Assembly: GCF_037101375.1 (NCBI RefSeq)
Contig: NZ_AP029019.1
Coordinates: forward strand, 3,944,001 to 4,008,000
Reading direction: 5' to 3'
DNA from: Acidovorax sp. DW039
GTDB taxonomy: Bacteria > Pseudomonadota > Gammaproteobacteria > Burkholderiales > Burkholderiaceae_C
DNA length: 64,000 nt
Shown: one piece after another, positions 26,861-43,085 of the stretch
Position numbering within the stretch: the stretch's first letter is position 1
How the letters are laid out: each line of letters begins with the position of its first letter
Program-made: the position numbers and the translations under genes
The notes under the pieces: generated by a model
Told to the model about the DNA's origin: nothing
The model's database searches: none
The model's input: the letters and a program-made list of their open reading frames with translations, nothing else

Positions 26861-27874
26861 TCAGTCTTGCAACATGCGGGCTACGCCGTCCTGCCACCGC
26901 CAGGCGTCCTGGCACATCGCGTCCAGCCCGCGGTGCGCGCGCCACCCCAGCAGTTGCGCGGCCAGTGCAGGATCGGCCCAGCACTGCGCCACATCCCCAG
27001 GGCGGCGAGCCACCACTTTGTAGGGCACCGCTCTGCCGCTGGCCCGCTCGAAGGCATGCACCATGTCCAGCACCGACAGCGGCTGCCCGGTGCCGAGGTT
27101 GACCGTCAGCAGCCCCGGGTGCTTGCGCAGATATTCCAGCGCCGCCACATGCCCCTGGGCCAGATCACACACGTGGATGTAATCGCGCACCCCCGTGCCA
27201 TCGGGCGTGGGATAGTCGCCGCCATACACGCTCAGGCACTCACGCTGCCCCACGGCCACCTGGGCCACGTAAGGCAGCAGGTTGTTGGGCACATCCTGGG
27301 GGTCTTCGCCGATCAGGCCACTTTCGTGCGCCCCCACGGGGTTGAAATAGCGCAGCCGGGCAATACGCCACAGCCCCGGCTCTGACATGTCCACATCAGC
27401 CAGCATCTGCTCCATCATGAGCTTGCTCCAGCCGTAGGGATTGGTGGCAGAGAGCGGGAAGTCCTCGCGGATGGGCACAGAAGCAGGGTCCCCATACACC
27501 GTGGCGGAGGAAGAGAACACCAGCGTGCGCACCTGCGCTGCCTGCATGGCCTGCAGCAAAGCCAAGGTGCCCGCCACGTTGTTCTGGTAGTAGTTGAGCG
27601 GTGCACGCACCGATTCGCCCACCGATTTGAGTGCCGCAAAATGAATCACGCCCTCAATAGGGTGGTCTGCAAACACCCGCTGGAGCAAGGCTGCATCGCG
27701 GACATCGCCTTCCACAAAAGGCACAGGAGCGCCCGTGATGCGAGCCATGCGGTCCAGCACCGATCGGCGGCTGTTGCAGAAATTGTCCAGCACCATGTAG
27801 GGGATACCAGCCGCTGCCAAAGCCACGCAAGTGTGTGAGCCGATGAAGCCAGCTCCGCCAGTTACAAGAATCAC
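26861..27874 (-). CDS. galE: UDP-glucose/UDP-N-acetylglucosamine 4-epimerase, GalE family
   Basis: GalE inverts C4 of UDP-hexoses. The protein starts at GTG 27874 (VILVTGGAGFIGSHT), with GAGGAG nine bases upstream; a longer in-frame ATG at 27922 lacks such a site. It has the NAD-binding GGAGFIG, FSSSATVYG and the catalytic YGWSK. At the position of E. coli Tyr299 (context RRPGDLPAYWAD) it has Cys298 (RRPGDVAQCWAD). A small residue there lets human GALE and the E. coli Y299C mutant accept N-acetylated sugars, so UDP-GalNAc synthesis is plausible. It is divergent from pelA (476 bp). Length 337 residues is normal. Confidence 0.95.
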   Translation of the reverse strand: MILVTGGAGFIGSHTCVALAAAGIPYMVLDNFCNSRRSVLDRMARITGAPVPFVEGDVRDAALLQRVFADHPIEGVIHFAALKSVGESVRAPLNYYQNNVAGTLALLQAMQAAQVRTLVFSSSATVYGDPASVPIREDFPLSATNPYGWSKLMMEQMLADVDMSEPGLWRIARLRYFNPVGAHESGLIGEDPQDVPNNLLPYVAQVAVGQRECLSVYGGDYPTPDGTGVRDYIHVCDLAQGHVAALEYLRKHPGLLTVNLGTGQPLSVLDMVHAFERASGRAVPYKVVARRPGDVAQCWADPALAAQLLGWRAHRGLDAMCQDAWRWQDGVARMLQD

Positions 27875-28350
27875 GCTATCGAACTCCTCAAAATGGGATT
27901 TCACTTCCCGGGGAAGGCTCACTTAATCGAAATCGCTTCTAAATTGTCGGGTTAAAAGCCGTGTCGCAATTTAGCGCGGGATATCTGCACGTTCTTTTTT
28001 CTTGTTCGCAAGACTCCCGGCAACGGGACTGGAGCATGAACGGATGGTTCGTAGTCCAAGCAGCATTGCAAACAATCGTTGTACGCGCCCTGCCGATCCG
28101 AACACGACGAAGTGATATTGGGAAGAACCGCGTTGGCATCGCTGATTCAATAAGGCATAAGAGAAGAGTATTCACTCACACCCCCTCTACTTTTCCATCC
28201 AAAGAGATCGACACCATCCCGAGCCGGACCTCCTAAAATCCTTGATCTGCCGATTCCCATCCGGTTGCTACCGTGCAAGCAAGTTCTGTTACACGTAGCC
28301 CATCGGACTGCATTGCGCCTCAAAAGCGTCACCCCAGTTCCTCCGCCCTC
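27875..28350. other. galE-pelA divergent intergenic region
   Basis: This 476-bp region is less GC-rich than its flanks and should hold the promoters of galE (minus) and pelA-G (plus). It contains an 8-bp inverted repeat with wide spacing at 27939-27974. I cannot place -35/-10 elements with confidence. Short open frames here lack ribosome binding sites and family features, and I regard them as non-coding. Confidence 0.6.
27939..27974. promoter_or_regulatory. Widely spaced dyad, candidate operator
   Basis: CTAAATTG (27939-27946) and CAATTTAG (27967-27974) are perfect inverted half sites, separated by 20 bases, about 65 bp upstream of the galE start. AT-rich half sites with two-turn spacing suit a dimeric regulator. 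Which protein binds is unknown. Confidence 0.4.
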
Positions 28351-31188
28351 ATGACACACCCGTTTCGCTTTCTTATCCTGTTGATGTCGGCATTGGTGCT
28401 CGTGGGCACAGCAGGCCAGGCTCAGGCAAAAAAAGCACCAGCTATTGCGCTTTACTACCAGCACAACGCTCCATTGGAGGACCTGAAAGTCTTTGATATC
28501 GTGGTGGTAGAGCCTGACCATGGCTATGACCCAGCAGATTTGCGCACAAAGGGGACGGAGCTTTATGCGTACACATCCGTCGCAGAAGTACAGCCCACGC
28601 GGGCCTATTTCAAGGACATCCCTGCGCAGTGGCAAATGGCACGCAACGGGCACTGGAACTCGGTAGTTGTCGACCAGACGCCCCCGGAATGGCCCGCTTT
28701 TTTTGCAGACCGAGTAGTAGCCCCTCTGTGGCAAAAGGGCTACCGGGGCTTCTTTCTGGACACCATGGACTCGTACCGTCTGGCCAGTCACTTTGATGAA
28801 GCTGCGCAGCAAGACGGACTGCTGCGCGTAATTGAGACGCTGCACAAACGCTTCCCCGGCATTCAGCTGATCATGAACCGGGGATTCGAAATTTCGCCAC
28901 GCCTTAAAGGCAAGATTCAAATGATTGCAGCGGAATCGCTGTATCGCAGGTGGAATAGCGTTGCCAGTCGCTATGAAGAAGTACCAGCAAATGATCGCGA
29001 TTGGCTAACTGCGCAACTCAAGACCATTCAGGATCGTGATGGCATTCCAGCACTGGTCATTGATTACGTCCCCCCGCACGATCGGGCACTCGCACGCGAC
29101 ACTGCCAGGCGTATCGAAACTGATGGTTTCATTCCTTGGGTGACCGACAGCCGCCTGAGCACCGTTGGCGTGGGATCGCTAGAACTTGTGCCCCGTCGAA
29201 TCCTCGTGATCTACAACAGCTCGGAGTCCCCCGCAATCAACTACAGCAACCCCCACCGCTATGTACAGATGCCCCTGAACCATATGGGCTATGTAGTCGA
29301 TTACGCAGACGTGCTTAGCACCTTGCCGAGCGCCATTCACCGGGACCGCTATGCAGGGGTATTGACCTATTTTTCGGGCTTTGTCCCCAAGAACCGCATG
29401 CGGGAGCTGAACCAATGGTTGCAGACCCGAAAAGCTGAAGGAATGCCAATTGCCATCATGGGTGACTTTGGGCTTCTGCCGGATAAATCATGGGCTGCTA
29501 CGTTCGGTCTACAAGTCAGCGATGTGAATATCGCCGCGCCGTTGCGCCTCAAGGACAAACATGCAGCGATGGAATTTGAAATCGCCCTTCCGCCCATCAG
29601 GCGGGATGACACTCCCGTCTTGCTGGTCGGACCGCAGGCCGCACAAGCTGAGCCTCTGGTCGAATTTGTAGACAAAAAGAGCCGCAGTTTCGTTGGCGGG
29701 GCTTTCATGCCCTGGGGGGGCTTCATTCTCGACCCCTATGTTCTCACCGAGCTACCCGGCACTGGACAAACGCGCTGGGTAGTCAACCCATTTACCTTCC
29801 TCGAAAAAGCACTGCAACTCCCCCCTTTGCCGGTGCCTGACACCACCACAGAAAATGGTTTAAGACTGCTTCTGGCGCATATTGACGGGGACGGTTTCCC
29901 CTCCAAAGCCGAATTGGCGGGTAGCCCTCTGGCTTCGCAAGTTCTGTTGCAGGAAATTTTCGAGAAGTACCGTATTCCTCAAACCATGTCGATCATTGAG
30001 GCAGAAACGGCCCCCCACGGACTCTATCCAGACCAAAGCAAGCAACTGGAAGACATCGCGCGCAAGATGTTCAAACTTCCGCACATCGAGGCAGCTAGCC
30101 ACACTTTCTCGCATCCCTTCCTGTGGGACCCTTCGGTCAAACATGGGGTGTTCTCAGAAAACGCCGAAGCCCAGCAATCATTGAATATTCCCGGTTACAA
30201 GCTGGACTTCCAGCGCGAAACGGCTGGCTCTGCTGAATACATTCGTAACCAGCTTGTACCTGCCGGCAAGGCGGTAGAAATACTCCAATGGTCAGGGGAC
30301 ACCGCTCCCAACGAAGCGGCTCTCAAGGCTTCTTATGAAGCGGGTTTGTTAAACCTCAACGGAGGAGACACGTCCATTTCAAAGGCGCAACCAACGCTGA
30401 CTGCCATTGGCGCCCTGGGCATTACCAAGGGCAGTTACTTGCAGGTCTACGCGCCTGTCACAAACGAGAACATCTATACCAACCTGTGGCAGGGCCCCTA
30501 TTACGGCTTCGAGCGAGTACTCGAAACCTTCGAGATGACCGACAAGCCCAAGCGTATCAAGCCCGTCGGCATTTATTACCACACGTACTCAGCCTCCAAG
30601 GCTGCAGGCATCAAGGCCTTGAAGAAGGTATACGACTGGGCCTTATCCCAGCCTCTGCAACCGATTCGCGCATCGGAGTTCATCCGCAAGGTGCAAGACT
30701 TCCACACGTACGCTATTGCCTGCGAAGACGGGGGTTGGCGGGTGCGTGGCGCAGGCAACTTGCGCACGTTGCGCATGCCCTACTCCGTGAGTGATCTAAT
30801 CCCTGCGCTTGCCCAAAGTACCGGCGTAGCAGGTATGAGCGAAGGAATCGAAGGCAGCTACATCCACCTCACCAGTGACCGCGCGTGGATTGCACGACCA
30901 GGAGGCGCTTCGGAGCCCGTCAACGCACCGCAAGTATGGCTGTACAACGCAAATGCCCGCTTGACGCAGTGGCAACGCTCACAACAAGGGCAACGTACGG
31001 ACTTCACCCTGCAAGGCCACGTACCACTGCAATTCAGCTTGGCGGGTATGAACCCCTCATGCAAGCTGAACGCCAATGGGCAACCTTTGGCGGCAATCAA
31101 ACCTTCCCACAACCAGCGCACCGACGTGCGTGCCTACAAGTTAGCCGATGCTTCCGCGCAAATCCAAGTTATCTGCTCCGGACGCTGA
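28351..31188 (+). CDS. pelA: Pel polysaccharide deacetylase / glycoside hydrolase PelA
   Basis: PelA is the periplasmic bifunctional enzyme of Pel synthesis: an alpha-1,4-N-acetylgalactosaminidase domain and a polysaccharide deacetylase domain. The protein is 945 residues from ATG 28351 (MTHPFRFLILLMSALV), with a cleavable signal ending AQA. The N-terminal hydrolase barrel (to about residue 280) includes MIAAESLYRRWN (Glu195, candidate acid/base). The deacetylase metal motif is Asp512 (IDGDGF), His584 and His588 (SHTFSHPF). The spacing (72 and 76 residues) equals that reported for P. aeruginosa PelA Asp528/His600/His604. PAO1 PelA is about 948 residues. First gene of pelA-G; its 3' end overlaps pelB by 41 bases. 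Confidence 0.95.
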   Translation: MTHPFRFLILLMSALVLVGTAGQAQAKKAPAIALYYQHNAPLEDLKVFDIVVVEPDHGYDPADLRTKGTELYAYTSVAEVQPTRAYFKDIPAQWQMARNGHWNSVVVDQTPPEWPAFFADRVVAPLWQKGYRGFFLDTMDSYRLASHFDEAAQQDGLLRVIETLHKRFPGIQLIMNRGFEISPRLKGKIQMIAAESLYRRWNSVASRYEEVPANDRDWLTAQLKTIQDRDGIPALVIDYVPPHDRALARDTARRIETDGFIPWVTDSRLSTVGVGSLELVPRRILVIYNSSESPAINYSNPHRYVQMPLNHMGYVVDYADVLSTLPSAIHRDRYAGVLTYFSGFVPKNRMRELNQWLQTRKAEGMPIAIMGDFGLLPDKSWAATFGLQVSDVNIAAPLRLKDKHAAMEFEIALPPIRRDDTPVLLVGPQAAQAEPLVEFVDKKSRSFVGGAFMPWGGFILDPYVLTELPGTGQTRWVVNPFTFLEKALQLPPLPVPDTTTENGLRLLLAHIDGDGFPSKAELAGSPLASQVLLQEIFEKYRIPQTMSIIEAETAPHGLYPDQSKQLEDIARKMFKLPHIEAASHTFSHPFLWDPSVKHGVFSENAEAQQSLNIPGYKLDFQRETAGSAEYIRNQLVPAGKAVEILQWSGDTAPNEAALKASYEAGLLNLNGGDTSISKAQPTLTAIGALGITKGSYLQVYAPVTNENIYTNLWQGPYYGFERVLETFEMTDKPKRIKPVGIYYHTYSASKAAGIKALKKVYDWALSQPLQPIRASEFIRKVQDFHTYAIACEDGGWRVRGAGNLRTLRMPYSVSDLIPALAQSTGVAGMSEGIEGSYIHLTSDRAWIARPGGASEPVNAPQVWLYNANARLTQWQRSQQGQRTDFTLQGHVPLQFSLAGMNPSCKLNANGQPLAAIKPSHNQRTDVRAYKLADASAQIQVICSGR

Positions 31189-34100
31189 ACGCCCCGTACT
31201 TGCCAGCTATTGGCTCACTGCGTTACTGGCAAGCTTGGTCGGCGGCGCTCTATGGCTTATGTATCCACGCCAAGATTTGGAGCGGAGGCTACTCGCGTCC
31301 AGTAGCGATTCCAGCCTCTCACTGGCGTACCTGAAGAATCTGCTGCGAAGCGATCCGAACAACCCGATGCTGCAACAGTTGCTGGCGCAGCGCGTGGCGG
31401 AAGATGAGGCTCGAAAACAAAAGGAAGCTGAGCTGGCCAACCGCCAGCCTTCGCCATGGACACGCTGGCGCGATGCAATGGATAGCTACCACGCACTCCC
31501 TATCGCGGCCACAGAACAGCGCAGCACTCTGCGTGCTGACCTGATAGTGCGCCTGCGTGAGCTGGTGACCGACGAGGTCCCTGCTGAAGTGCTTCCAGCG
31601 TTAGCGGAAGATGCCTTCCACCTGGGGGAGCCCCTGCTGGGCATTCAGATGTATCGCCGAATGGGGGATGAAGCCCGCTCCAAAGACAGCGCTGTAGCGC
31701 TCTATGAGCGCGCAGCGCGCGAAGCACTCGGGGTCTCTGCCCACCAGGAGGCAGCAAGTCTGTTTCTGAAAGCATGCCGCTCCAGTTCCCGCTCAGACCA
31801 AGCCAAGGCTTTCTATCTGAGCGCTATCGCTGCCATGCAGGCATCTGGCAAGCCGGCGGAGGCACTGGCCTTGGCGCAGCGCGAGGCGGGTGACCTCGAA
31901 ACAGATCCAGAGGTATTGCGTGTGCTGGTGGAGCTAGCACGGGCAGCTGGCAAACCCTCGATTGCCGAGCAATACATGAAGCGGTTGCTTCGTCTGGCCC
32001 TGCTTCAGCAATGGCAGCAGACCGTCATTGCCGCCGCATCGCCGCAGATGCATCCCATGTCGGGCGATGCCATGGTGACTGAGCCGGCACTGATGCGCTA
32101 TGAAGATCGCGCCTACCTGCTGGACACGAGCATGCTTCACCACCCCAGCGTAGCGGGAGTACGGAGGTTAATGACCGCGCAGGGGAGCGACCGCACTGGC
32201 ATGGAGAAGGCGGGTCCAGGCCTGCCGTTTGACGACAAGATATATGCCCTGGGGTATCAGGTTTTTCTGGAAAACCGCAACCTTGAAGACGCTTGGCTGG
32301 TAGCTAAGTCCGCCGTACAACAAGCCCCGGACAACTTGGCATGGCGTGAGCGGCTGGCCCAGGTTGCCGAGTGGACACAGCGCAGCGATGTCGCATTGCA
32401 AAACTGGCTGGTCATCGCACGGACCACTCAACAGGACCGCGCTTGGCAATCAGTCCTGAGGCTTGCGCCTGGATTGTTTGATGATGCGGCGCTCATTGAA
32501 GGTCTGCGCTACGAGTTGCGGCGTAACCCTGACAACGCAGTTCTATCCAAGGAGCTCGTCCAGGCGTATGAGCGGGTGGGCTCTCCCGCGCCAGCCATCG
32601 AATTCCTGCAACAGCAGCCACGCTTGCCCGCCAACTTGGAATTGCTGGCGGACATTGCGACCCGGGCAGGACAAATGGACATAGCCCTTCAAGCCTGGGA
32701 GCAGCTTCTGGCAGATGGCACTCAAGCCACGCCGGAGCGCGTCATGCGCGCAGCTACCTTGGCGGTCGTGCGAGGCAAGCCTGAGCTGGCAATGGCTTGG
32801 TTGGAGGCGGCGCGCAAAGCAGTCATCCCCGGAGCAGATATCACCACAGACTTTTGGCGCATGACGGGGCAACTGGCCGAACGCCAGCAGCGTGACGCAG
32901 TGGCGCTGGACGCATACCGACAACTTTTGACCACACCCGATGCCGAGCTGCCGGACTTTGATTCGGCCATCAGACTGCTGCAAGTGGACCATCCACTACA
33001 GGCAGCAGAAGTAGCCGTGCAGGCCTGGGACCGCTTCTACCAACCGCGTCACCTAATCCTCGCTTTGAATACCTACGTCAGCCGTAGCCAGTGGATGCAG
33101 GTCAAGCAACTGCTGGATAAAGCGAACCCCGAGGGCAGCGTTTTGCGGGAGGCAATCGCGCCTCTGTGGAAAGACGCTCAGTTTTTGCGCATCGCGGGCC
33201 TTTACCAGCAGAACAAGGGCAACCTTACCCGGGCAGCCAAGCTGTTTGATGCGGCCTTACGATTGGCCCCCGATTCGGCTGAAATGCGACAGGCCATCGT
33301 GTGGCTATTTATCGATAGCAACGACAACATCTCTTTGCGCAAACTGCTGGCCACCTACGAAGCGGAGTGGAGTGAGGACAAGGAGATGCATGATGCCCTG
33401 GGTTCGGCCTATCAAGCCCTATCCCTGCCCTCAGTGGCGCTGGCTCGATACTTCACCCCTCAGCTGGCTGAACGGCAAAACGACTTCCTGTGGCTGATGA
33501 ACTATGCCGATGCACTGGACCAAAACCAGGAGCCCGACAAGTCCTGGCGCTTGCGCCGACATCTCTTGTCCTCGGAATGGACGCAAGCCCAACAGGGTCT
33601 GCCCATGACACGCCCCCAAGCACGCGCGCACTGGCTTACAGAAGAAGGACTGGATGTCACCCGACGCCTGGCCCGCGCGCGTCTGCTGCTGGTGAATAAG
33701 CCTGGTGACCCCGCCTTCGAAACGCTGCGTGAACTCATGCGACTGGATCGGGATGCCGCAGGCAACTTGTCCAACGCAGCGGCCGAAACCGCCATTGGCT
33801 GGCTACAAGACGCGGGGCAGTACTCTGCCGAACGGGGCTTGCTGTGGCAGCAATACGCACGCAGCCAAAGCCTGCGCGCCAATCGACCTTTGTGGGCGGA
33901 CATCACCCTCGCTCTGGCAGAACAAGACAACGCGTCCACCGGTGCCTTGCTGGACACCTTTGGCGAACGCCTGCCTCGTTACGATCACATCAACGCCGCC
34001 GTTGCCGTGCAAGATGTGCGCTTGGCGCAGACATCGGCCTTTGAATACCAAATAGATCAGCCTGACGATGCACCGCTGCATTTGCAGCTCACCGAAAACT

Positions 34101-35047
34101 TGCTAGCTTTCAGTGACCATGCAGGCCCCCAGGTTGAAGCAAGAAAGCTCGGAGACCTGGAGGAAACAGAGGCCAATGCGCAATGGCATGTGGCGTTGAG
34201 TCCCCGCCTGTCGATGGATCTGGGCCTGACTCGCATTCACCGCACTGCAGGACTTTCCACTCAGCTGAGCAATCCCTCGCAGGAAAGGGGTGTGAAGGTC
34301 GATCTACGCTGGCAAGAGCAGGACACCACAACCACGCTACATATTGCACGGCGCGAGAGCCTGGCCAGCTACACCCCCGTACAGCTCGAACACGAATGGC
34401 GTCTGGACAGCCGTCTGACGTTGCGCATGGACATCGGCATGCAACTGCCCACCCAGGAGAGCACCGTGCTACGTATGGCGGGCATGAAAGACCGAGCCGG
34501 CATCAGCTTGCGCTACCAGATTTCCCGGCTCGACCAGATCACCATGGAACACTGGCGAGAGAATTACAAGCTACAGACTGGTGGGATGCTGGGCAATGGG
34601 CGTCACTCATCACTGACATACACCCACAGCTACCGGGTGGAAGCTCCGAGTCTGGAATTTGGAGCGTTTTGGTCTCAACACGCTTATGACAGGCGCGACC
34701 CTGGAGAGCTTTCGGGCAGAGATCTGGCCTTCACCCAGTACCTCCCGCCCGGCGTAGAGCGTGTCGGCGAAACCTATTTCCTGCCTGAGAATTTCAGCTT
34801 CTATGGTCTGCAGATATCGACCAATACCCGCTTTGAGCGCGACTACACGCGCGCACTGCAACCCTTTGGCAGCATTGCCCGAACATGGCACAGCCGCCAG
34901 GGTGCGGGCTACAGCCTGCGTCTGGGCTTGGCAGGCAGCTTGCTGGGTAGCGACCACTTGAACCTGGGTTGGAGCCTGGGCAAGGGCGGAACTCTTACAC
35001 AGGGGCTCACGCGCGAGATACAGCTGCGCTACCGCAAGCACTTCTGA
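31148..35047 (+). CDS. pelB: Pel outer-membrane export protein PelB (TPR plus beta-barrel)
   Basis: PelB is the outer-membrane porin for Pel, with a long periplasmic TPR scaffold that binds PelA. The 1299-residue protein has an N-terminal membrane helix (YWLTALLASLVGGALWLMY), many TPR-like helical pairs (about residues 45-960), and a C-terminal beta-barrel of alternating polar and hydrophobic strands. It ends REIQLRYRKHF with the terminal Phe of outer-membrane barrels. ATG 31148 lies inside pelA (41-base overlap). It is slightly longer than PAO1 PelB (about 1190 residues). Confidence 0.93.
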   Translation: MLPRKSKLSAPDAERPVLASYWLTALLASLVGGALWLMYPRQDLERRLLASSSDSSLSLAYLKNLLRSDPNNPMLQQLLAQRVAEDEARKQKEAELANRQPSPWTRWRDAMDSYHALPIAATEQRSTLRADLIVRLRELVTDEVPAEVLPALAEDAFHLGEPLLGIQMYRRMGDEARSKDSAVALYERAAREALGVSAHQEAASLFLKACRSSSRSDQAKAFYLSAIAAMQASGKPAEALALAQREAGDLETDPEVLRVLVELARAAGKPSIAEQYMKRLLRLALLQQWQQTVIAAASPQMHPMSGDAMVTEPALMRYEDRAYLLDTSMLHHPSVAGVRRLMTAQGSDRTGMEKAGPGLPFDDKIYALGYQVFLENRNLEDAWLVAKSAVQQAPDNLAWRERLAQVAEWTQRSDVALQNWLVIARTTQQDRAWQSVLRLAPGLFDDAALIEGLRYELRRNPDNAVLSKELVQAYERVGSPAPAIEFLQQQPRLPANLELLADIATRAGQMDIALQAWEQLLADGTQATPERVMRAATLAVVRGKPELAMAWLEAARKAVIPGADITTDFWRMTGQLAERQQRDAVALDAYRQLLTTPDAELPDFDSAIRLLQVDHPLQAAEVAVQAWDRFYQPRHLILALNTYVSRSQWMQVKQLLDKANPEGSVLREAIAPLWKDAQFLRIAGLYQQNKGNLTRAAKLFDAALRLAPDSAEMRQAIVWLFIDSNDNISLRKLLATYEAEWSEDKEMHDALGSAYQALSLPSVALARYFTPQLAERQNDFLWLMNYADALDQNQEPDKSWRLRRHLLSSEWTQAQQGLPMTRPQARAHWLTEEGLDVTRRLARARLLLVNKPGDPAFETLRELMRLDRDAAGNLSNAAAETAIGWLQDAGQYSAERGLLWQQYARSQSLRANRPLWADITLALAEQDNASTGALLDTFGERLPRYDHINAAVAVQDVRLAQTSAFEYQIDQPDDAPLHLQLTENLLAFSDHAGPQVEARKLGDLEETEANAQWHVALSPRLSMDLGLTRIHRTAGLSTQLSNPSQERGVKVDLRWQEQDTTTTLHIARRESLASYTPVQLEHEWRLDSRLTLRMDIGMQLPTQESTVLRMAGMKDRAGISLRYQISRLDQITMEHWRENYKLQTGGMLGNGRHSSLTYTHSYRVEAPSLEFGAFWSQHAYDRRDPGELSGRDLAFTQYLPPGVERVGETYFLPENFSFYGLQISTNTRFERDYTRALQPFGSIARTWHSRQGAGYSLRLGLAGSLLGSDHLNLGWSLGKGGTLTQGLTREIQLRYRKHF

Positions 35048-35078
35048 ACCCATCCAATATTGATAGAAAGAAAATCCG

Positions 35079-35630
35079 ATGATTTGCAACACCAGAACCC
35101 TGGGCAGACTGAAAGTCATAGCCAGCGCATGGGCGCTTTGCACACTGGTCGCCTGCTCGACGATGGACCGTGGCCGAGCTCCCACACTGCAGTCCAACGC
35201 TGATTGGACCGTACTGCCTTTTGCCAACCATACCGAGACCCCCATGGCCGGTAATCGTGCCGAAAGCGTTGCAGAGGCTCTGCTGCATGCGCAGGGCGTG
35301 GGCAAGGTCAAACGCTATACAAGCACAGCGCAGCAAGAGGCCTTGTTCGACGCGGGAGACACCAAACGCCAGGAACAAGCACTGGCCTGGGCCCGAGAGC
35401 AAGGCGTGCGTTATGCGCTGGCAGGCACGGTAGACGAGTGGCGCTACAAAGTGGGGGTGGACGGTGAACCTGCAGCCGGAGTCACGTTGCAAATCATTGA
35501 CGTGCAAAACGGGGAGGTTCTCTGGAGCGGTGCAGGGGGCAAGTCCGGCTGGAGCCGTGAAGCACTGTCGGCTGTGGCACAAAAGCTGATTCGCGAACTC
35601 CTGCAAGCTGGCCTGTCCGGCACACGTTAA
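35079..35630 (+). CDS. pelC: Pel outer-membrane lipoprotein PelC
   Basis: PelC forms a dodecameric ring on the periplasmic side of the outer membrane that guides Pel to PelB. The 183-residue protein has a signal with the lipobox LVACS (Cys at about residue 26). The mature domain has an NADWTVLPFANHTETPMAGN strand-loop pattern, typical of PelC/LptE-like folds, and a C-terminal helix EALSAVAQKLIRELL. It starts 31 bp after pelB with a GAAAGAAA leader and ends 3 bp before pelD. Confidence 0.92.
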   Translation: MICNTRTLGRLKVIASAWALCTLVACSTMDRGRAPTLQSNADWTVLPFANHTETPMAGNRAESVAEALLHAQGVGKVKRYTSTAQQEALFDAGDTKRQEQALAWAREQGVRYALAGTVDEWRYKVGVDGEPAAGVTLQIIDVQNGEVLWSGAGGKSGWSREALSAVAQKLIRELLQAGLSGTR

Positions 35631-35633
35631 GTC

Positions 35634-37025
35634 TTGGCCTCTCAGCGCATGCAAGCTCCCGATCCAGCCCCCTCAGCTCGCCCTGACGACGTTACTGCGT
35701 CTACCGCACAGCGTAAGCCAGGATTTACCGGCGCCCCCTTGGGCAAACTGGGCACGGCAGGAGACCGACCCTGGTTGGTCACGCTGGAATCACTCATGGT
35801 GCCCAGCCTCGCCATAGGGATAGGCATGGCATTTCATCCTGAGGATCCACTGGGGGTGAACGCGGCATTTCACTGGGCTTGGCTTGCACCCATCATCGTG
35901 GCCTTGCGCTACGGGCCGCTGGCAGGGCTGGGTGCTGCCGCGGTGCTGTTGTTGGCATGGGTAGCGTTGCACCAGGACCAGATGGACCAATTCCCGCAGA
36001 TTTTCTTTTTGGGTGGACTGATCACAGTAATGCTGGTGGGTGAGTTTTCCAGCTTATGGCGGGCGCGCACCCGCCGCGCGGAATCCGTGCAGTATTACCT
36101 GGACCAACGGCTGGAACACCTCATACGTCAGTACTACCTGCTGAGGCTGTCGCACGACCGGTTGGAGCAGGAACTGATTGGTCGTCCGATGTCGATGCGC
36201 GACGCACTCAAGACACTGCGCGGCCTCAGTGGTGGAGAGGACGGAGCCCAGATCCTGCTTCGGTTGCTCGCGCAGTATTGCCAGATCAGCTCTGCTGCAG
36301 TTCACCCTGTCAATGATGACAAACTGGAAATAACCGCAACAGCCACCATTGGTTCACCTGTTGCAGTTGACATCAAAGACCCCTTGCTTGCCCAGGCAAT
36401 GGAAACACGCACCTTGTGCCATGTCGTTCAGGCAACGGTGCGACAGGAAGCTACCCGCTACCTTGTAGCCGCCCCTCTGCTGGACATCGGGGGCGAGATA
36501 TACGCAATGCTTCTCATCGATGAGCTGCCGTTTTTCGCGCTGCAAGACGAGAACCTGCAAACCATCAACCTGCTGCTGGGCTACTACACTGACGGCTTGT
36601 CAACCCAGGCACTGGCGGCACCTCTACTGGAGCAAGTTCCCATCTGCCCCCCGGAATTTGCCTTTGAATTGCAGCGTCTGTGGCGCATGCACCAGAGCAC
36701 AAAAGTCCCCAGCATCGTGGTGGCGCTGGAATTCACCCAGGACGCTGCAGAAAGAGATCTACCCCAGCAATTCCTGCGGCTCAAGCGGATGATGGACGAA
36801 AGCTGGGTCATTGCCGGGTCGAAACGGCAAGTCATTGCTATCCTGATGCCGTTGGGCGATGCATCTACCGCCGAAGGGTTCATTGGTCGCCTGGAAGAGT
36901 GGATCCAACGCAAGCAGCACACGAGCCTCGCACAAGCAGGTATTTATCCGCACCCCCTGCCCTTGGCAGACTCGGATGGGCCACTGCCCATGCTGCAAAA
37001 GCTTCTGCAACTCGCCCATGCTTAA
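35634..37025 (+). CDS. pelD: c-di-GMP receptor of the Pel synthase, PelD
   Basis: PelD is the inner-membrane c-di-GMP receptor that switches on Pel polymerisation by PelF. It has four membrane helices (about residues 45-145), a charged helix (RRAESVQYYLDQRLEHLIRQ), a GAF domain (about 165-315) and a degenerate GGDEF domain (about 330-463). The latter lacks the GG[D/E]EF catalytic motif but has RMMD (about residues 380-388), an RxxD that fits the c-di-GMP I-site. The start is either TTG 35634, directly after pelC, or ATG 35649. Its 3' end overlaps pelE by 8 bases. Lack of an active cyclase site agrees with a receptor role. Confidence 0.93.
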   Translation: MASQRMQAPDPAPSARPDDVTASTAQRKPGFTGAPLGKLGTAGDRPWLVTLESLMVPSLAIGIGMAFHPEDPLGVNAAFHWAWLAPIIVALRYGPLAGLGAAAVLLLAWVALHQDQMDQFPQIFFLGGLITVMLVGEFSSLWRARTRRAESVQYYLDQRLEHLIRQYYLLRLSHDRLEQELIGRPMSMRDALKTLRGLSGGEDGAQILLRLLAQYCQISSAAVHPVNDDKLEITATATIGSPVAVDIKDPLLAQAMETRTLCHVVQATVRQEATRYLVAAPLLDIGGEIYAMLLIDELPFFALQDENLQTINLLLGYYTDGLSTQALAAPLLEQVPICPPEFAFELQRLWRMHQSTKVPSIVVALEFTQDAAERDLPQQFLRLKRMMDESWVIAGSKRQVIAILMPLGDASTAEGFIGRLEEWIQRKQHTSLAQAGIYPHPLPLADSDGPLPMLQKLLQLAHA

Positions 37026-38034
37026 CACCAAATGGGGGATTTCGGCCATTGCGATGGAGCTCACTGCGTGGGCGGGGCCAGCGCTTCTGGATGGGTATTC
37101 AGATGCTGCACTGCTGAGTTACCTGCTAGCCCACGCAGCGGCCTGTGTTTTGCTGGCAGTGTTCACACTGCCGCTGCTCAAGAACGAGCAGTCGCGCCCC
37201 AGGCTACCCATGCTCGCGCTGATGGCAGTGTGTAGCTATGCCGTGCCAATAGCGGGCTTTGTGGGCGTATTTGTAGGCACCGTGGTGCTACGACTGTACC
37301 GAGCTACCCGCCCCACAGAGGATTTTCACTCTGTGCACTTGCCAGAGTTCGACCTGCATCAGCGCATTCATGGTGGCTTCCGTCAAACTGGCCTGCGTGC
37401 AGTGCTGGGTAATAGCGAAGTCCCCGCCCGCTCCCGCATGCGGGCCATGGTCGCTCTGCAGCACATGTCTGGGCGCATTTCCTCTCCCCTGCTGCGCAAT
37501 GTACTCAACGACTCCAGTGAAGACCTTCGTTTGCTCGCATACGGCATGCTCGACGCCCTGGAGCGCAACCTGAGCCGTTCCATCGATCAGGAGCTGAGTA
37601 CCCTGCGCGAAGCAGAGGAAAAAGAGGGAACCAATCCGCTGGGCCCTACGGGCTTGCAGGCAGCAGAAAAGCTGTCGGCCCTTTACTGGGAACTGGTCTA
37701 CCAAAACCTGGCACAAGGGGACATGCGCAGCTACGCTATCAATGAGTCCCTGCGCTATTGCGAACAGGTACTGGCACAGCAACCTGAACACGCCCAGCAC
37801 ACCCTGCGCCGTGGTCTTCTGCTTCACGCACAGGGCCGTATGGACGATGCAGAGCAAGCCTATGAGCGGGCGCTGGAGTTGGGGTTGCCAGCTACACGAG
37901 TCTTGCCCTACCTGGCCGAGCTGAGGTTTGAGCAACGCGACTTCACCCACACCCGTCAGCTGATGCAGCAACTGGACGAATGGAGTGCCCTCCCCCGACT
38001 GCGCCCAGTCATCGACTATTGGAGGGCGCGATGA
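37018..38034 (+). CDS. pelE: Pel synthase membrane/TPR subunit PelE
   Basis: PelE is part of the inner-membrane Pel synthase complex with PelD, PelF and PelG. The protein starts at ATG 37018 (MLNTKWGISAIAM), overlapping pelD by 8 bases, and has 338 residues. Two hydrophobic helices occur near the N terminus (LLAHAAACVLLAVFTLPLL and SYAVPIAGFVGVFVGTVVL). A helical region with TPR-like units follows (QQPEHAQHTLRRGLLLHAQG). Its TGA overlaps the pelF start (ATGA). Length is near that of PAO1 PelE (about 329). Confidence 0.92.
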   Translation: MLNTKWGISAIAMELTAWAGPALLDGYSDAALLSYLLAHAAACVLLAVFTLPLLKNEQSRPRLPMLALMAVCSYAVPIAGFVGVFVGTVVLRLYRATRPTEDFHSVHLPEFDLHQRIHGGFRQTGLRAVLGNSEVPARSRMRAMVALQHMSGRISSPLLRNVLNDSSEDLRLLAYGMLDALERNLSRSIDQELSTLREAEEKEGTNPLGPTGLQAAEKLSALYWELVYQNLAQGDMRSYAINESLRYCEQVLAQQPEHAQHTLRRGLLLHAQGRMDDAEQAYERALELGLPATRVLPYLAELRFEQRDFTHTRQLMQQLDEWSALPRLRPVIDYWRAR

Positions 38035-39572
38035 CCCATCCCAAAGCTGCCGACGCTGATATCGCGCTGCTGCTGGAAGGCACTTTTCCCTACGTGAGTG
38101 GAGGCGTTTCCAGTTGGATCAACCAGATCATCCAGGCTTTCCCGGAGTACCGCTTCGCTTTGGTGTTTCTGGGCAGCCAGCGCTCGGACTACAAGCAGTT
38201 CAAATACAAGCTGCCCGCCAATGTGGTGCACTTTGAAGAGCATTTTCTGTACGACGACCTTTCGGCCCAAAACCTGCCCCAGGCCCGCAAGGGTGACGAA
38301 GCCACGTTCGAAGTGCTGCGCGGCATCGTGAACACCTTGCGCGAAGGCAGCACGGGTACCGAGCAAACATTGCAGATGCTGCGCGCAGTCACGCGCGAGA
38401 TGGCCCCTGGCGGCAATTTTCCCCTGGAAGACTTTCTGTACAGCGAACGCTCCTGGGAGTTGATCCGCGACACCTACCGTGAGTACTGCACAGATCCCTC
38501 TTTCGTAGATTATTTCTGGACAGTGCGCATCATGTTCAAGCCCCTGTGGACGCTGGCGAGCGTTGCACAGAATCTCATCCCGGTACGCATGCTGCACAGC
38601 GCCTCCACCGGCTACGCAGGCTTCCTGGGAGCTGTGCTGCACGACACCCGCAACATTCCGTTTGCTCTGTCCGAGCATGGCATCTACACCAAAGAGCGGC
38701 AGATCGATCTGCTCAAGAGCGAGTGGATTCGGGACAACCGCAACGTGTTCCAGCGCGACCCTACGGAGCTGTCGTACTTCCGGCAAATGTGGATCAGACT
38801 GTTTGAGTGGATGGGACGCTATTGCTATGCGGCTGCTGATCCCATCATCGCGCTGTACGAAACCAACCGCTTGCGGCAGGTGCAAGATGGAGCCGACCCG
38901 GCGCGCACGTTCAACATCCCCAACGGTATCCAGCTCGCCCGCTTTGCGCCCATGCGCGACAAGCGCCCGGCACAGGTGCCGCCCGTACTCTGCCTCATTG
39001 GCCGCGTGGTGCCCATCAAAGACGTGAAGACCTTCATTCGCGCGATGCGCCGGGTGGTGAACCAGATGCCGCAAGCCGAGGGCTGGATCGCTGGCCCCAC
39101 AGATGAAGACCCCTCTTACGCCCAAGAGTGCGAGAACCTGGTACGTAGCCTGGGGCTGGAAAACCACGTGAAGTTCCTGGGCTTCCAGAAGGTGGAAGAC
39201 CTCATGCCCAAGATCGGACTGATCGTACTATCCTCCATCAGCGAAGCCCTGCCGCTCGTGATACTGGAAGGCTATGCGGCAGGTGTTCCCACAGTTTCCA
39301 CTGATGTGGGCTCGTGCCGCCAGTTAATTGAGGGCTTGGGCGACGAAGACCGTGCACTGGGCAGCAGCGGGAGCGTCGTCGGCATTGCTGACCCGCAGGC
39401 GCTGGCCGATGCAGCGATTGCCCTGCTGAACGATCCGGCAGAGTGGACACGTGCCAGCCAGGCGGCCATTGCCCGCGTGGAGCGCTACTACACCGACAGC
39501 ATGATGTTTGGAAGCTACCGCAAGGTGTACCAACAGGCTCTGGGTGGACCTGCAACCGAAGAGGTGCACTGA
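38031..39572 (+). CDS. pelF: Pel glycosyltransferase PelF (GT4)
   Basis: PelF is the cytosolic GT4 glycosyltransferase that polymerises Pel, with UDP-GalNAc as the proposed donor. The 513-residue protein begins at ATG 38031, with GGAGG six bases upstream, overlapping pelE by four bases. The N-terminal Rossmann-like domain has EGTFPYVSGGVSSWINQII; the C-terminal domain has CLIGRVVPIKDVKTFIRAM and the EALPLVILEGYAAGVPTVST retaining motif (E-x7-E). Length matches PAO1 PelF (507). It is followed by pelG after one base. Confidence 0.96.
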   Translation: MTHPKAADADIALLLEGTFPYVSGGVSSWINQIIQAFPEYRFALVFLGSQRSDYKQFKYKLPANVVHFEEHFLYDDLSAQNLPQARKGDEATFEVLRGIVNTLREGSTGTEQTLQMLRAVTREMAPGGNFPLEDFLYSERSWELIRDTYREYCTDPSFVDYFWTVRIMFKPLWTLASVAQNLIPVRMLHSASTGYAGFLGAVLHDTRNIPFALSEHGIYTKERQIDLLKSEWIRDNRNVFQRDPTELSYFRQMWIRLFEWMGRYCYAAADPIIALYETNRLRQVQDGADPARTFNIPNGIQLARFAPMRDKRPAQVPPVLCLIGRVVPIKDVKTFIRAMRRVVNQMPQAEGWIAGPTDEDPSYAQECENLVRSLGLENHVKFLGFQKVEDLMPKIGLIVLSSISEALPLVILEGYAAGVPTVSTDVGSCRQLIEGLGDEDRALGSSGSVVGIADPQALADAAIALLNDPAEWTRASQAAIARVERYYTDSMMFGSYRKVYQQALGGPATEEVH

Positions 39573-39573
39573 C

Positions 39574-40947
39574 ATGGCCGGCATTGGTTTTGAACTGCGC
39601 CGGATGTTGCGCAAGAACACCTTGACGGGCCTCCTGCAGGCATACGCCTACGCAGGTGTGATTGGTTCAGGGCCTTGGGTATTTTCCATTATTGGCATTT
39701 TGCTGGTGGGTATCTTCAGCGCCAGCGTCGTAGTACCCAACTTTCTGGTCACCCAATTCCAGACCTCTGTGACTTACCTCGTGGCCTGCAGCCTGATCTT
39801 GACGGGTTTCGCGCAGTTAGCCTTCACCCGCTTTGTTTCCGACCGGCTGTTTGAAAAGAAGCGAGATCTGATCTTGCCCAACCTGCACGGGTTGCTGCTG
39901 GGCGTGGTTACGGTAGCCGCAATATTGGGTACGTTGGCGCTATTCGTCGTATTTCCCGGTGAGCGGGTGCTGTACCGGCTGCTCATGCTGGCAGGCTTTT
40001 GCGTCATGTGCGGCGTATGGGTACTGGCCATCTTGCTCTCAGGGATGAAGCGATACCAAGCCATCACCGTGCTGTTTGGAGGCGCTTACGCACTGATCGT
40101 AGTGGCCTCGCTGTTGATGCGCCCATGGGGACTGGAAGGGCTGCTGGGTGGCTTCGTACTGGGTAATTTTGTGTTGCTGGCCGGTATGTGGGTGATGGTG
40201 GTGCGCGACTTCAGCCCCAAGGGAACGCTGATCGCATTCGATTTTGCCGAGCGCAAGCTGCTGTATCCATCGCTTGTGCTGGTGGGTCTGCTGTACAACG
40301 TGGCCATCTGGGCAGACAAGTTCATGTTCTGGTACTTTCCGCCCACGTCTGAGCCCATCATCGGCGGCCTGCGTGCCTCCTTGATCTACGACTTGCCAGT
40401 GTTTCTGTCGTACCTGTCCATCATCCCCGGCATGGCGGTGTTTCTGGTGCGTATCGAGACTGACTTTGTGGAGTACTACGACAAGTTCTACGACGCTGTG
40501 CGCAGCGGCGGCTCGCTGGAATACATCGAATCGATGCGCGATGAAATGGTCTATGCCATCCAGCAGGGGCTCAGCGAAATAGCGAAGATCCAGACCCTGG
40601 CCGTACTGGTCACCTTCGTGGCGGGTCCGGCATTGCTGGATGCCTTGGGGATTTCCAGTCTGTACCTGCCCTTGCTGCACGTTCAGGTAGTAGGTGCAGG
40701 CTTGCAGGTCGGGTTGATGGCCATCCTCAACGTATTCTTTTACCTAGACCAACGCCGTATTGTGCTGGTGCTGTGTGCAGAGATGGTGGTACTGAACATT
40801 GTCTTCACAGCTCTGACACTGCACTTGGGGGCTGCGTTCTACGGATATGGCTTCGCCGGCGCGATGCTGATTACGCTATGCACCGGCATGGTGCTGCTGA
40901 CGCGGCAGCTCAACCGGTTGGAATACGAAACCTTCATGCTGCAATGA
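39574..40947 (+). CDS. pelG: Pel inner-membrane transporter PelG (MOP superfamily)
   Basis: PelG is the polytopic membrane subunit that moves Pel across the inner membrane. The 457-residue protein begins MAGIGFELRRMLRKNTLTGL, the family N terminus, and has about twelve membrane helices, as in MOP/Wzx-like flippases. The conserved stretch LLYNVAIWADKFMFWYFPPT and the loop FFYLDQRR are seen. It starts one base after the pelF stop and is the last of pelA-G; 115 bp later comes the GH135-like lipoprotein gene. Confidence 0.95.
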   Translation: MAGIGFELRRMLRKNTLTGLLQAYAYAGVIGSGPWVFSIIGILLVGIFSASVVVPNFLVTQFQTSVTYLVACSLILTGFAQLAFTRFVSDRLFEKKRDLILPNLHGLLLGVVTVAAILGTLALFVVFPGERVLYRLLMLAGFCVMCGVWVLAILLSGMKRYQAITVLFGGAYALIVVASLLMRPWGLEGLLGGFVLGNFVLLAGMWVMVVRDFSPKGTLIAFDFAERKLLYPSLVLVGLLYNVAIWADKFMFWYFPPTSEPIIGGLRASLIYDLPVFLSYLSIIPGMAVFLVRIETDFVEYYDKFYDAVRSGGSLEYIESMRDEMVYAIQQGLSEIAKIQTLAVLVTFVAGPALLDALGISSLYLPLLHVQVVGAGLQVGLMAILNVFFYLDQRRIVLVLCAEMVVLNIVFTALTLHLGAAFYGYGFAGAMLITLCTGMVLLTRQLNRLEYETFMLQ

Positions 40948-41021
40948 GCAGTACAGCCAAGAAGTGCCAACTGCGCTCTCACAGAAGCATCTTTACAAAA
41001 GTCTGTGGAGCGTGACCGCTT

Positions 41022-41050
41022 GGCTGAGGTAACATTTTTTTACCCCAGCC
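41022..41050 (+). promoter_or_regulatory. Hairpin upstream of the GH135-like lipoprotein gene
   Basis: GGCTGAGGTAA (41022-41032) and TTACCCCAGCC (41040-41050) form an 11-bp stem with one mismatch; the loop is T-rich. It ends 12 bases before ATG 41063, where no clear ribosome binding site is seen. It may be a leader hairpin, or a weak terminator of pelG with the U-run in the loop. Confidence 0.4.
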
Positions 41051-41062
41051 TCAAGCCATGCA

Positions 41063-42241
41063 ATGTCCCATCCTTTGAACCTCCTGCTGCGTACCTTCCG
41101 CCTATTTCCGATCACTGCGCTGGTAGCAGCCTGCGGAGGTGGTGGCGGCAGCTCAGACGCCCCTACACCACCAAGCACAGTGCAAATAGCGGTCACAGCG
41201 CCGGCTGCAGGCAGCGTGCTGACCATCCAGTCGCCAGTCACAGTCCAGGCACAGGTTTCCGTGAATGGCAGTGCTGCAGCCGATGGAACCCCGGTATCGT
41301 TCTCGATGCTTGGCGGCAGCTTCTCACCCGTCGCGCCCCAAACGCGCTCAGGGCTGGCCTCCACATCGCTCACGGGCAGCACTGCGGGAGCCCAAATTAT
41401 CACGGTGGGTAGTACCGTGAATGGATCCACCGGAACCGGCACACAGACCATCTACCTGCGGCCTCAGCCAGCAGCGCTTGAGATTTTGGTGCCTGCCTAT
41501 TTCCACCCCACAACGAACCCCGGTTGGGCCCAGATGACGGCAACAGCTAGCGTCAACCCCACCACTAGCATCACCGCGATCCTGAACCCTTCCAACGGCA
41601 TCTTCACCACAGCAGATGCCGCAACGCTGCAGGCAGCTCGAAATCTGGTCGCTGCAGGTGGCAAAGTCATCGGATATGTATACACCCGCTACGGAAGCGG
41701 CACGCGCAGCGTGACTGACATCAAGACCAACATTGACCGCTATCTGGAGTTGTACGGCACCTCAGTGATCAGTGGCATTTTTCTGGATGAAATGTCTGCC
41801 AACGAAGCGCAGATTCCTTTCTATCGCGAGATTTACGATCACATCAAAGCCCGTGGCGCCACCCTGCGCGTGGTGGGCAACCCTGGTTTGGTTCCGGCTG
41901 CATCGTATGCAGGAGTCACGGACGCCATCGTCAGCTTTGAAGGTACAGCCACTGCATTTCAGAGCTTTGACCCACGGTCCAGCACTCCCTGGCTGTACAC
42001 ACTTAGCAACAATCGCCATGCGATGCTGATGCACAACGCTGACACTTGTGCCGCTATGCAAGCCGCTATTCAGGCCGCCGGATCAGCCCGCTACAACCAA
42101 GGCTTGGTGTACGCAACCAACCTGCAGTACAACCCCACTACGCAGGTCGGCAACCCATGGGCCAGTCTGCCAAGCTACTGGAATACGCTAGTGAGCACGG
42201 TACAGGCTATCAACTCAACCACTGCACTGCCCGCCTGCTGA
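41063..42241 (+). CDS. Lipoprotein with Ig-like domain and Spherulin-4/GH135-like hydrolase domain
   Basis: The 392-residue protein has a lipoprotein signal (VAAC, Cys24, then GGGGGSS), a Big_1-like Ig fold (about residues 40-135: GSVLTIQSPVTVQAQV, PVSFSMLGGSFSP), and a spherulation-specific family 4 barrel (about 140-390: LVPAYFHPTTNPGW, NPSNGIF, GKVIGYVYTRYG). Aspergillus Sph3, the GH135 prototype, uses an Asp/Asn/Glu set in such a barrel. Here Asp242 (IFLDEM), Asn273 (VVGNPG) and Glu293 (SFEGTA) match, with 20 residues between Asn and Glu as in Sph3. Sph3 cuts galactosaminogalactan, a chemical relative of Pel. Same strand as, and next to, pelG; probably envelope-anchored. Activity is inferred only. 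Confidence 0.85.
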   Translation: MSHPLNLLLRTFRLFPITALVAACGGGGGSSDAPTPPSTVQIAVTAPAAGSVLTIQSPVTVQAQVSVNGSAAADGTPVSFSMLGGSFSPVAPQTRSGLASTSLTGSTAGAQIITVGSTVNGSTGTGTQTIYLRPQPAALEILVPAYFHPTTNPGWAQMTATASVNPTTSITAILNPSNGIFTTADAATLQAARNLVAAGGKVIGYVYTRYGSGTRSVTDIKTNIDRYLELYGTSVISGIFLDEMSANEAQIPFYREIYDHIKARGATLRVVGNPGLVPAASYAGVTDAIVSFEGTATAFQSFDPRSSTPWLYTLSNNRHAMLMHNADTCAAMQAAIQAAGSARYNQGLVYATNLQYNPTTQVGNPWASLPSYWNTLVSTVQAINSTTALPAC

Positions 42242-42252
42242 TCCGCCAACAA

Positions 42253-42287
42253 AAAGCCCGACTCGAAGCGACTCCGAGCCGGGCTTT
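42253..42287. terminator. Bidirectional terminator between GH135-like gene and hisA
   Basis: A 13-bp stem (42253-42265 with 42275-42287, one mismatch; core AAAGCCCG/CGGGCTTT) has a 9-base loop. It lies 12 bp after the stop of the lipoprotein gene and about 55 bp after the hisA stop on the other strand. A-rich and T-rich ends suit termination in both directions. Confidence 0.8.
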
Positions 42288-42341: not shown

Positions 42342-43085
42342 TCAAGCTTCGCTGAGTTCGTCTGCGCGCGCCTGTGCAGCCGCAAAGTCCAGATCACCGC
42401 TGTAGATGGCGCGACCGCAGATCACGCCCTCCACGCCTTCGTCTTCCACAGCGCACAGCTGCTCGATGTCGGCCATGCTGCCCAGGCCACCCGAGGCAAT
42501 CACCGGGATGCTCAGGGCCTGGGCCAGCTTCACGGTGGCGTCGATGTTGATGCCAGAGAGCATGCCGTCGCGGCCGATGTCGGTGTAGATGATGGATTCC
42601 ACGCCCCAGTCTTCAAACTTCTTGGCCAGGTCCACCACTTCATGGCCGGTGAGCTTGCTCCAGCCGTCCGTGGCCACCTTGCCGTCCTTGGCATCTAGGC
42701 CCACGATGATGTGGCCGCCAAAGGCACTGCAGGCATCCTTCAAAAAGCCGGGGTTCTTGACGGCTGCGGTGCCGATGATGACGTAGCGCAGACCGCCGTC
42801 GATGTACTTCTCGATGGTGTCCAGATCGCGGATACCGCCGCCCAACTGCACCGGAATGTCGTCGCCCACCTCTTTGAGGATGGACTTGATGGCGCTGTAG
42901 TTCTTGGGGGTGCCTGCAAACGCACCGTTCAGGTCCACCAGATGCAGTCGGCGGGCACCAGCATCCACCCATTTACGGGCCATCGCCGCGGGGTCTTCAC
43001 CAAAGGTGGTGGATTGGTCCATATCTCCTTGCTTGAGGCGAACGCAGTGGCCGTCTTTGAGATCGATGGCGGGGATGAGCAGCAT
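42342..43085 (-). CDS. hisA: ProFAR isomerase (HisA)
   Basis: HisA isomerises N'-ProFAR to PRFAR, step 4 of histidine synthesis. The 247-residue beta-alpha barrel begins [20 protein letters not shown] and has the catalytic Asp in IDLKDG and in [12 protein letters not shown]. Phosphate loops are [11 protein letters not shown] and [12 protein letters not shown]. It follows hisH by 53 bp. The gene that should follow, hisF, is 15.7 kb away. Confidence 0.97.

Follow-up and report, generated by a model that had tools for sequence, protein, structure and literature searches.

The biofilm polymer Pel consists of alpha-1,4-GalNAc and is partly deacetylated. To our knowledge, the P. aeruginosa pel operon carries no gene for a GH135 lipoprotein, and we know of no lipoprotein anchor or Ig-like domain in the Aspergillus enzyme Sph3. 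The locus analysed here shares with P. aeruginosa the gene order pelABCDEFG and a PelA with GH166 hydrolase and deacetylase residues, whereas it differs in the presence of galE and in its location inside a his operon, no precursor enzyme being part of the P. aeruginosa operon in the accessible portion of its description (PMC9135694; the papers cited here and below are likewise represented by partial texts). In the B. cereus cluster pelDEADAFG (PMC7112168), a separate hydrolase gene and galE also flank the synthase genes, but the divergent PelAH described there resembles the PelA hydrolase domain that is missing from its PelA, whereas the hydrolase of the present locus is of GH135 type and additional. 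The S. intermedius pel cluster contains an extra anchored hydrolase gene as well, and its polymer is cut by Sph3; however, this hydrolase (SIR_1591) is described as beta-amylase/beta-galactosidase-like with a DUF4832 domain (PMC12345266). The Aspergillus galactosaminogalactan cluster brings together an epimerase, a synthase, a deacetylase and hydrolases, but is fungal (PMC7229062), and bacterial agd3 operons include Spherulin-4 genes in some actinobacteria and Pel outer-membrane parts in Gram-negative species, but are not described in the accessible text of the same paper as pelABCDEFG with a GH135 lipoprotein.

A literature search joining the pel operon with spherulin returned only the Agd3 paper, while the titles found for spherulation-specific family 4/PF12138 included none on bacterial pel. 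The words 'spherulin' and 'Acidovorax' are absent from the main text of PMC7112194, and the arrangement of pel with a GH135 lipoprotein was not found among the matches listed in a wider search, which left most subscription papers outside. The pel kit itself is of a known kind, in a new form with an extra GH135-type hydrolase and an unusual home in the his operon.

The window, i.e. the whole stretch of 64,000 nucleotides analysed from Acidovorax sp. DW039, contains recognisable hisC, hisB, hisH, hisA, hisF, hisI and hisE, and the Pel block is located between hisA and hisF of this one his operon, with the seven pel genes in order on a single strand:

about 25865..26665, minus strand: hisF, left flank (TIGR00735, 375 bits), followed by hisI and hisE
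26861..27922, minus strand: galE, predicted UDP-Glc/GlcNAc 4-epimerase (TIGR01179, 435.6 bits, over cut-off)
28351..31188, plus strand: pelA, GH166 hydrolase and deacetylase (PDB 9cgy, E 1.6e-184, query residues 56-939)
31148..35047, plus strand: pelB, TPR and outer-membrane barrel (PF24604, 322 bits)
35079..35630, plus strand: pelC, lipoprotein (weak LpoB match, position and synteny)
35634..37025, plus strand: pelD, c-di-GMP receptor (PelD GGDEF domain PF16963, 112 bits; aligns to PDB 4dmz)
37054..38034, plus strand: pelE, TPR membrane protein (weak TPR matches, position and synteny; start uncertain, open frame from 36859)
38031..39572, plus strand: pelF, glycosyltransferase (NCBIfam equivalog NF038011, 805 bits, cut-off 100)
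39574..40947, plus strand: pelG, exporter (PF16933, 524 bits)
40948..41062, plus strand: 115-bp gap between pelG and sph4, able to fold into hairpins (z -2.4)
41063..42241, plus strand: sph4, Spherulin-4/GH135-type lipoprotein (PF12138, 147 bits, cut-off 30.2)
about 42255..42287, both strands: two-way terminator hairpin between sph4 and hisA (fold z -6.6 on minus, -2.4 on plus)
42342..43085, minus strand: hisA, right flank (TIGR00007, 258.6 bits)

The starts of pelA, pelF and pelG are those chosen among candidate starts, that of pelE is likewise a candidate, and for galE a GTG at about 27874 suits the homologues better than 27922. The initial annotation had proposed these nine genes (galE, pelABCDEFG and the lipoprotein) at the same positions, and family models, solved structures or synteny agree with it; its view that genes for an epimerase making the precursor, for synthesis and export of the polymer and for an additional hydrolase form one block is supported. 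Its term "self-contained" overlooks the nature of the block as an exchangeable island inside a his operon. The bidirectional terminator that it placed at the block end corresponds to the hairpin above, which folds on both strands, though it is absent from the list of a consensus terminator scanner. A promoter scan of the window gave 2 matches against 5.6 expected and is uninformative. The closest named locus belongs to Acidovorax temperans DSM 7270 (L195), with 96% identity in PelG and 83% in the lipoprotein, and has in common with the window a CTTTACAAAA stretch and a ACATTTTTTTAC hairpin with a T-rich loop in the pelG-sph4 gap (L195, 9888-10000), which are possibly regulatory.

GalE of the window contains Cys314 in the alignment column of Tyr299 in E. 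coli GalE (1udc, 1lrj), in agreement with the divergent galE with a Cys gatekeeper reported earlier. Cysteine at the gatekeeper position opens the GalE pocket, a small residue here being the feature of dual-specificity enzymes, and the protein is predicted to act on UDP-GlcNAc/UDP-GalNAc. Every one of the 25 galE copies read at the his site has the gatekeeper Cys, as do 4 of the 5 other epimerase matches neighbouring pel; it is not special to pel, as galE copies at pel-less his sites carry it too. PelD retains R385-x-x-D388 and R398 as compared with P. aeruginosa PelD (PDB 4dmz), where the R-x-x-D and the later arginine bind c-di-GMP. PelA keeps the equivalents of D160, E218, D528, D530, H600 and H604 (alignment to PDB 9cgy), whose roles in hydrolysis and deacetylation are assigned in PMC12022489. 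The hydrolase residues are kept in 33/33 pel loci read, which rules out sph4 as a replacement for a lost PelA hydrolase and means that a second hydrolase is not needed, while the deacetylase residues could be read in 32 of the 33, L070 not aligning over that part.

The lipoprotein comprises a lipobox (Cys24), an Ig-like domain (residues about 40-133) and a barrel (about 139-392), and matches PF12138 with E 8e-43 over residues 140-380. The barrel is predicted to adopt the Sph3 fold, Aspergillus Sph3 (GH135) being the closest solved structure. Its candidate catalytic residues D242, E243 and E293, the counterparts of which are reportedly D166, E167 and E222 in Sph3, are invariant in 46/46 aligned proteins (alignment A2: the window protein plus 45 others, taken from 120 listed among 150 found; a further alignment, A3, held 34 of the 61 proteins of one relatives search). 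The match, the fold and the kept residues rule out a hydrolase call by chance or mis-annotation, and the window copy is not a pseudo-enzyme, an assignment supported for the unlinked genus copies described below. By its sequence, the protein may be classed as an endo-alpha-1,4-N-acetylgalactosaminidase of the GH135 kind. Across 128 tblastn stretches, some of them genes seen twice in overlapping loci, the triad reads DEE in 119, DGA in 7, DQE in 1 (L095) and DAE in 1 (L270), and the exceptions do not all come from the Acidovorax group.

Lipoproteins are sorted by the residue at position +2, those with no Asp there going to the outer membrane. The window protein has the lipobox Cys and no Asp at +2, and among the aligned proteins the Cys is present in 43/46, with Gly at +2 in 43/43 of those. 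The protein is thus predicted to sit in the outer membrane, on either face, the lipobox predicting the membrane only. The Spherulin-4/GH135-like barrel of the initial annotation is borne out by the PF12138 score, well over cut-off, and by the predicted Sph3 fold; its "second, surface-anchored Pel hydrolase" stands as an extra predicted hydrolase, but surface exposure goes beyond what the lipobox predicts, and the cutting of mature Pel is put in doubt by Sph3 releasing nothing from native Pel.

The reading that we favour, and hold to be fairly probable, is that the linked GH135-type lipoprotein of this his-operon island trims the cell's own still-acetylated Pel at the outer membrane. GalE would supply UDP-GalNAc, which PelF would polymerise under c-di-GMP control via PelD; PelG would carry the polymer across the inner membrane, PelA would partly deacetylate and cut it, and PelB and PelC would export it. 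The lipoprotein, tethered to the outer membrane by its lipid and usually with an Ig-like spacer, would most likely cut still-acetylated stretches of the polymer on exit, so that under-deacetylated Pel would be trimmed or released, PelA presumably tolerating a partly deacetylated chain. Re-N-acetylated Pel is cut by both Sph3 and PelAh, while products are released from native Pel by PelAh only (PMC9135694); Sph3 leaves Pel biofilms of P. aeruginosa undisrupted but disrupts the GalNAc-rich aggregates of S. intermedius (PMC12345266), and a secreted, short form of Pel is made by PelA hydrolysis (PMC9894940). If the window enzyme shares the preference of Sph3, it would add an activity that PelA lacks, namely cutting only where the chain has escaped deacetylation by PelA. 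Against trimming of own Pel, by analogy, stands the sparing of native P. aeruginosa Pel by Sph3 itself, and deletion of the S. intermedius pel-operon hydrolase, for which PMC12345266 reports no phenotype, also counts against a trimmer.

The same acetylated-chain specificity would suit nascent polymer, and the enzyme could instead be an anti-clogging periplasmic one, anchored in the inner leaflet, which clears GalNAc chains jammed before deacetylation and never meets the biofilm. Such a role has been proposed for Sph3 beside Gtb3 (PMC12054363), and the outer-membrane lipobox fits it as well. We consider it improbable, as PelA is already a periplasmic hydrolase with its residues kept, and the Ig-like spacer suggests a reach away from the membrane.

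Trimming of own Pel at the outer membrane is consistent with the distribution of the gene. In the genus sample (47 genomes), PelG is found in 10 genomes, and sph4 is located directly after pelG in all 10; Spherulin-4 matches occur in 23, or 22 when G212 (residues 14-114 only) is not counted, and a second, unlinked copy is present in 12 pel-free and 3 pel-positive genomes. The family sample (200 genomes) contains Spherulin-4 in 23 genomes, PelG in 25 (a 26th match, in G108, fell below cut-off and was dropped) and both in 15, with a Fisher p of 7e-11; such values overstate the association because of relatedness among the genomes and overlap between the samples. The corresponding numbers are 10, 30 and 9 in the order sample (260 genomes) and 7, 23 (a 24th below cut-off) and 6 in the phylum sample (259 genomes). 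Nine of the 25 family pel loci have at least one his neighbour (G000, G004, G020, G088, G120, G128, G141, G142 and G190), and sph4 is at the pelG end in eight of them, the G141 copy being on a separate contig beside hisA, while the exception, G128, lacks both sph4 and galE there. In the roughly 18-20 kb read for each of the 16 pel loci away from the his site, no sph4 was seen, and that 16 of the 25 do without an adjacent sph4 counts against a need for it. Outside the family, both genes are present in G465, 846 kb apart, and in G361, G362, G436 and G697, where linkage is still possible because they lie on different contigs, while G281 and G646 have Spherulin-4 and PelG was not found.

Named loci were collected as relatives of 17 pel-linked copies (best 80 of 95 taken, 77 distinct loci), and the pel-linked share among them is not a rate because the query favours linked copies. 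Pel genes lie within the flank read in 33 of the 77 loci, 32 from Comamonadaceae or unplaced relatives and one from a Zoogloea MAG; hisA is found just past sph4 in 27 of these 33 (with an aldose-epimerase gene between in 5) and a contig edge in 5. In 7 further loci, sph4 is near hisA with pel absent in the stretch read, and in 37 neither pel nor his genes were seen in the stretch read, where distant pel genes could be missed because they were sought with the window's proteins. The co-occurrence check in relatives suggested by the initial annotation has a positive outcome, limited to a defined subset of the pel loci, and the absence of co-occurrence that it had named as evidence against its proposal is not what was found, because the hydrolase gene co-occurs with pel. 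A Delftia that keeps sph4 after loss of pel was considered and rejected for D. tsuruhatensis (L282, L283), one of these 7, where hisF-galE-pelABCDEFG is on the contig of sph4, with pelG about 16.5 kb from it. The order of the genes points to an inverted his segment between pelG and sph4, so that the island is in two pieces and part of the his operon runs the other way, yet sph4 and pel are both retained. L214, L222, L223 and L227 (Delftia or Delftia-like) and L235 (Comamonas composti) are judged on the stretch read only.

The copies away from pel bear on the possibility that the hydrolase faces outward and digests the polymers of others (fungal galactosaminogalactan or neighbours' Pel), for invasion or food, sparing its owner because native Pel is deacetylated. 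It is in line with the cutting of poly-GalNAc and sparing of native P. aeruginosa Pel by Sph3 (PMC9135694, PMC12345266), with the lack of PelG in 8 of the 23 family-sample genomes that have Spherulin-4, and with the 37 of 77 named loci without pel or his in the stretch read, as sought with the window's proteins. We regard it as unlikely, since sph4 is linked to pel, PelG accompanies it even where unlinked (outside the family, 4 of 5 order-sample genomes with Spherulin-4 have PelG), and the copies with lost catalytic residues are the unlinked ones of the genus sample. These copies (L118-L129, L131-L133) have two of the three catalytic residues replaced, reading D-G-A in 15/15, as opposed to D-E-E in 10/10 pel-linked copies, so that a conserved, predicted inactive relative coexists with a predicted active pel-linked one. 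The unlinked relative is likely a pseudo-hydrolase; the 8 of 15 copies that entered a quick Spherulin-4 tree group together within the Comamonadaceae clade, and the genome of the window itself (5.2 Mb) has a single Spherulin-4 match and no D-G-A copy.

The trees were built from 28 loci, out of 34 selected, in which pelF, pelG, sph4, hisH, hisB and hisA are all present. Of 25 splits, pelFG and sph4 share 16, pelFG and his 7, and his and sph4 6. Approximately unbiased (AU) tests, with groups picked after the trees were seen, reject two pel groupings on the his data (p 2e-12 and 1e-7), the larger being supported in the sph4 tree at only 82/87. Both pel and sph4 pair Acidovorax defluvii with Simplicispira lacusdiani, a sister relationship that the his data reject (p 1e-7), and the his grouping of A. 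defluvii with four other Acidovorax-like loci is rejected by pel (p 3e-10) and sph4 (p 9e-6). These tests, with their post hoc groups, reject a purely vertical inheritance of the island along with the his genes beside it. Most simply read, pel and sph4 travel together, probably through recombination between the conserved his sequences on either side. A distance comparison pointed the same way, but the trees are relied on because hisH and hisB agree poorly (Spearman 0.44) and sph4 reaches 0.42 with hisH.

One ancestral insertion could have placed sph4 beside pel as a hitch-hiker, in which case the linkage would be silent on function, and 45 of the 46 pel-linked tree rows do fall in one Comamonadaceae clade at one site. 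This is very improbable in our view, given catalytic residues that are invariant at 42-91% identity, co-occurrence without linkage, joint transfer against the his flanks, tandem sph4 copies and a separate Zoogloea linkage. Tandem pairs are found behind pelG in 10 of the 33 loci (L203, L204, L205, L208, L212, L216, L218, L221, L226 and L229), from Paracidovorax, Xylophilus and relatives. In the Zoogloea MAG (L271), sph4 immediately precedes pelA, no his gene is seen in the stretch read, and the sph4 branch is long and outside the Comamonadaceae clade, marking a separate, second sph4-pel linkage.

Trimming of the cell's own acetylated Pel would bear on the question why exopolysaccharide loci often carry hydrolases for their own product. 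The locus offers a natural set-up, a second-family hydrolase beside an intact PelA, with a characterised relative of contrasting specificity and a dead sister in the genus as control, owing to which it can be tested directly whether the two enzymes share the work, with PelA acting on partly deacetylated and GH135 on acetylated chain. Bacterial GH135 enzymes are also candidate biofilm-dispersal tools.

The site between hisA and hisF was tallied in the 41 of 47 genus-sample genomes with both genes on one contig, hisF being taken as the weaker match (26-35% identical); the other six comprise G221 and G241, which are pel-positive but contig-split, two split without pel and two without a hisA match. 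The site is empty in 24 of the 41, because the genes are only 29-226 bp apart (4 read: L184-L187). It holds pel in 6, pel and another cassette in 2, the other cassette alone in 4, galE with an aldose-epimerase gene in 4, and an aldose-epimerase gene without galE in 1. The other cassette, a second exopolysaccharide one beside galE (L173-L176, L182 and L284, from G215, G214, G211, G202, G229 and G010), encodes a TackOD1 protein (with a GGDEF match near cut-off), a GT2 synthase, a TolC-like protein and an HlyD protein. The best NCBIfam model of the synthase is PgaC/IcaA, at 140.6 bits far below the cut-off of 422.3. The predicted structure of P0121, a database protein 97% identical to the cassette's TolC-like protein, joins a TolC channel to an eight-stranded barrel, and the structure chains nearest to this barrel are GH18 chitinase-like and Cwp19; the absence of Sph3 and PelA chains from the match list of this model is no evidence. 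TackOD1 is over cut-off in 1 of 200 family genomes, again at the his site, and the one paper found on it concerns archaeal signalling.

We tentatively propose, as a joint reading about which we remain rather doubtful, that the hisA-hisF junction in these Comamonadaceae is a place where exopolysaccharide machines are exchanged, with a resident galE, a hydrolase per cassette and a dead relative that binds poly-GalNAc. The resident galE, often with an aldose epimerase gene, would feed whichever cassette is present: pel, the other machine or both. The pel cassette would bring its acetylation-selective GH135 lipoprotein, and the other a TackOD1-GGDEF protein, a PgaC-like synthase, HlyD and the TolC-GH18-like fusion, while the catalytically dead Acidovorax relative would act as the poly-GalNAc-binding protein. 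Each cassette would bring its own hydrolase fixed to the outer membrane, which would suggest a shared rule of polymer trimming at the exit. Common to a second, unrelated polymer machine, the his-operon site may serve as a natural system for matrix-polymer swapping with one precursor enzyme kept.

An aldose-1-epimerase family gene is located beside hisA in L177, L178, L180, L181, L170, L172, L060 and L097, while the window has no room for one because its his-flank gaps are short. The second cassette adjoins pel in G229 and G225. The pelA of G225 (L166, 3782-6566) matches in three overlapping pieces and therefore may be frameshifted, while that of G229 (L165) matches in one piece.
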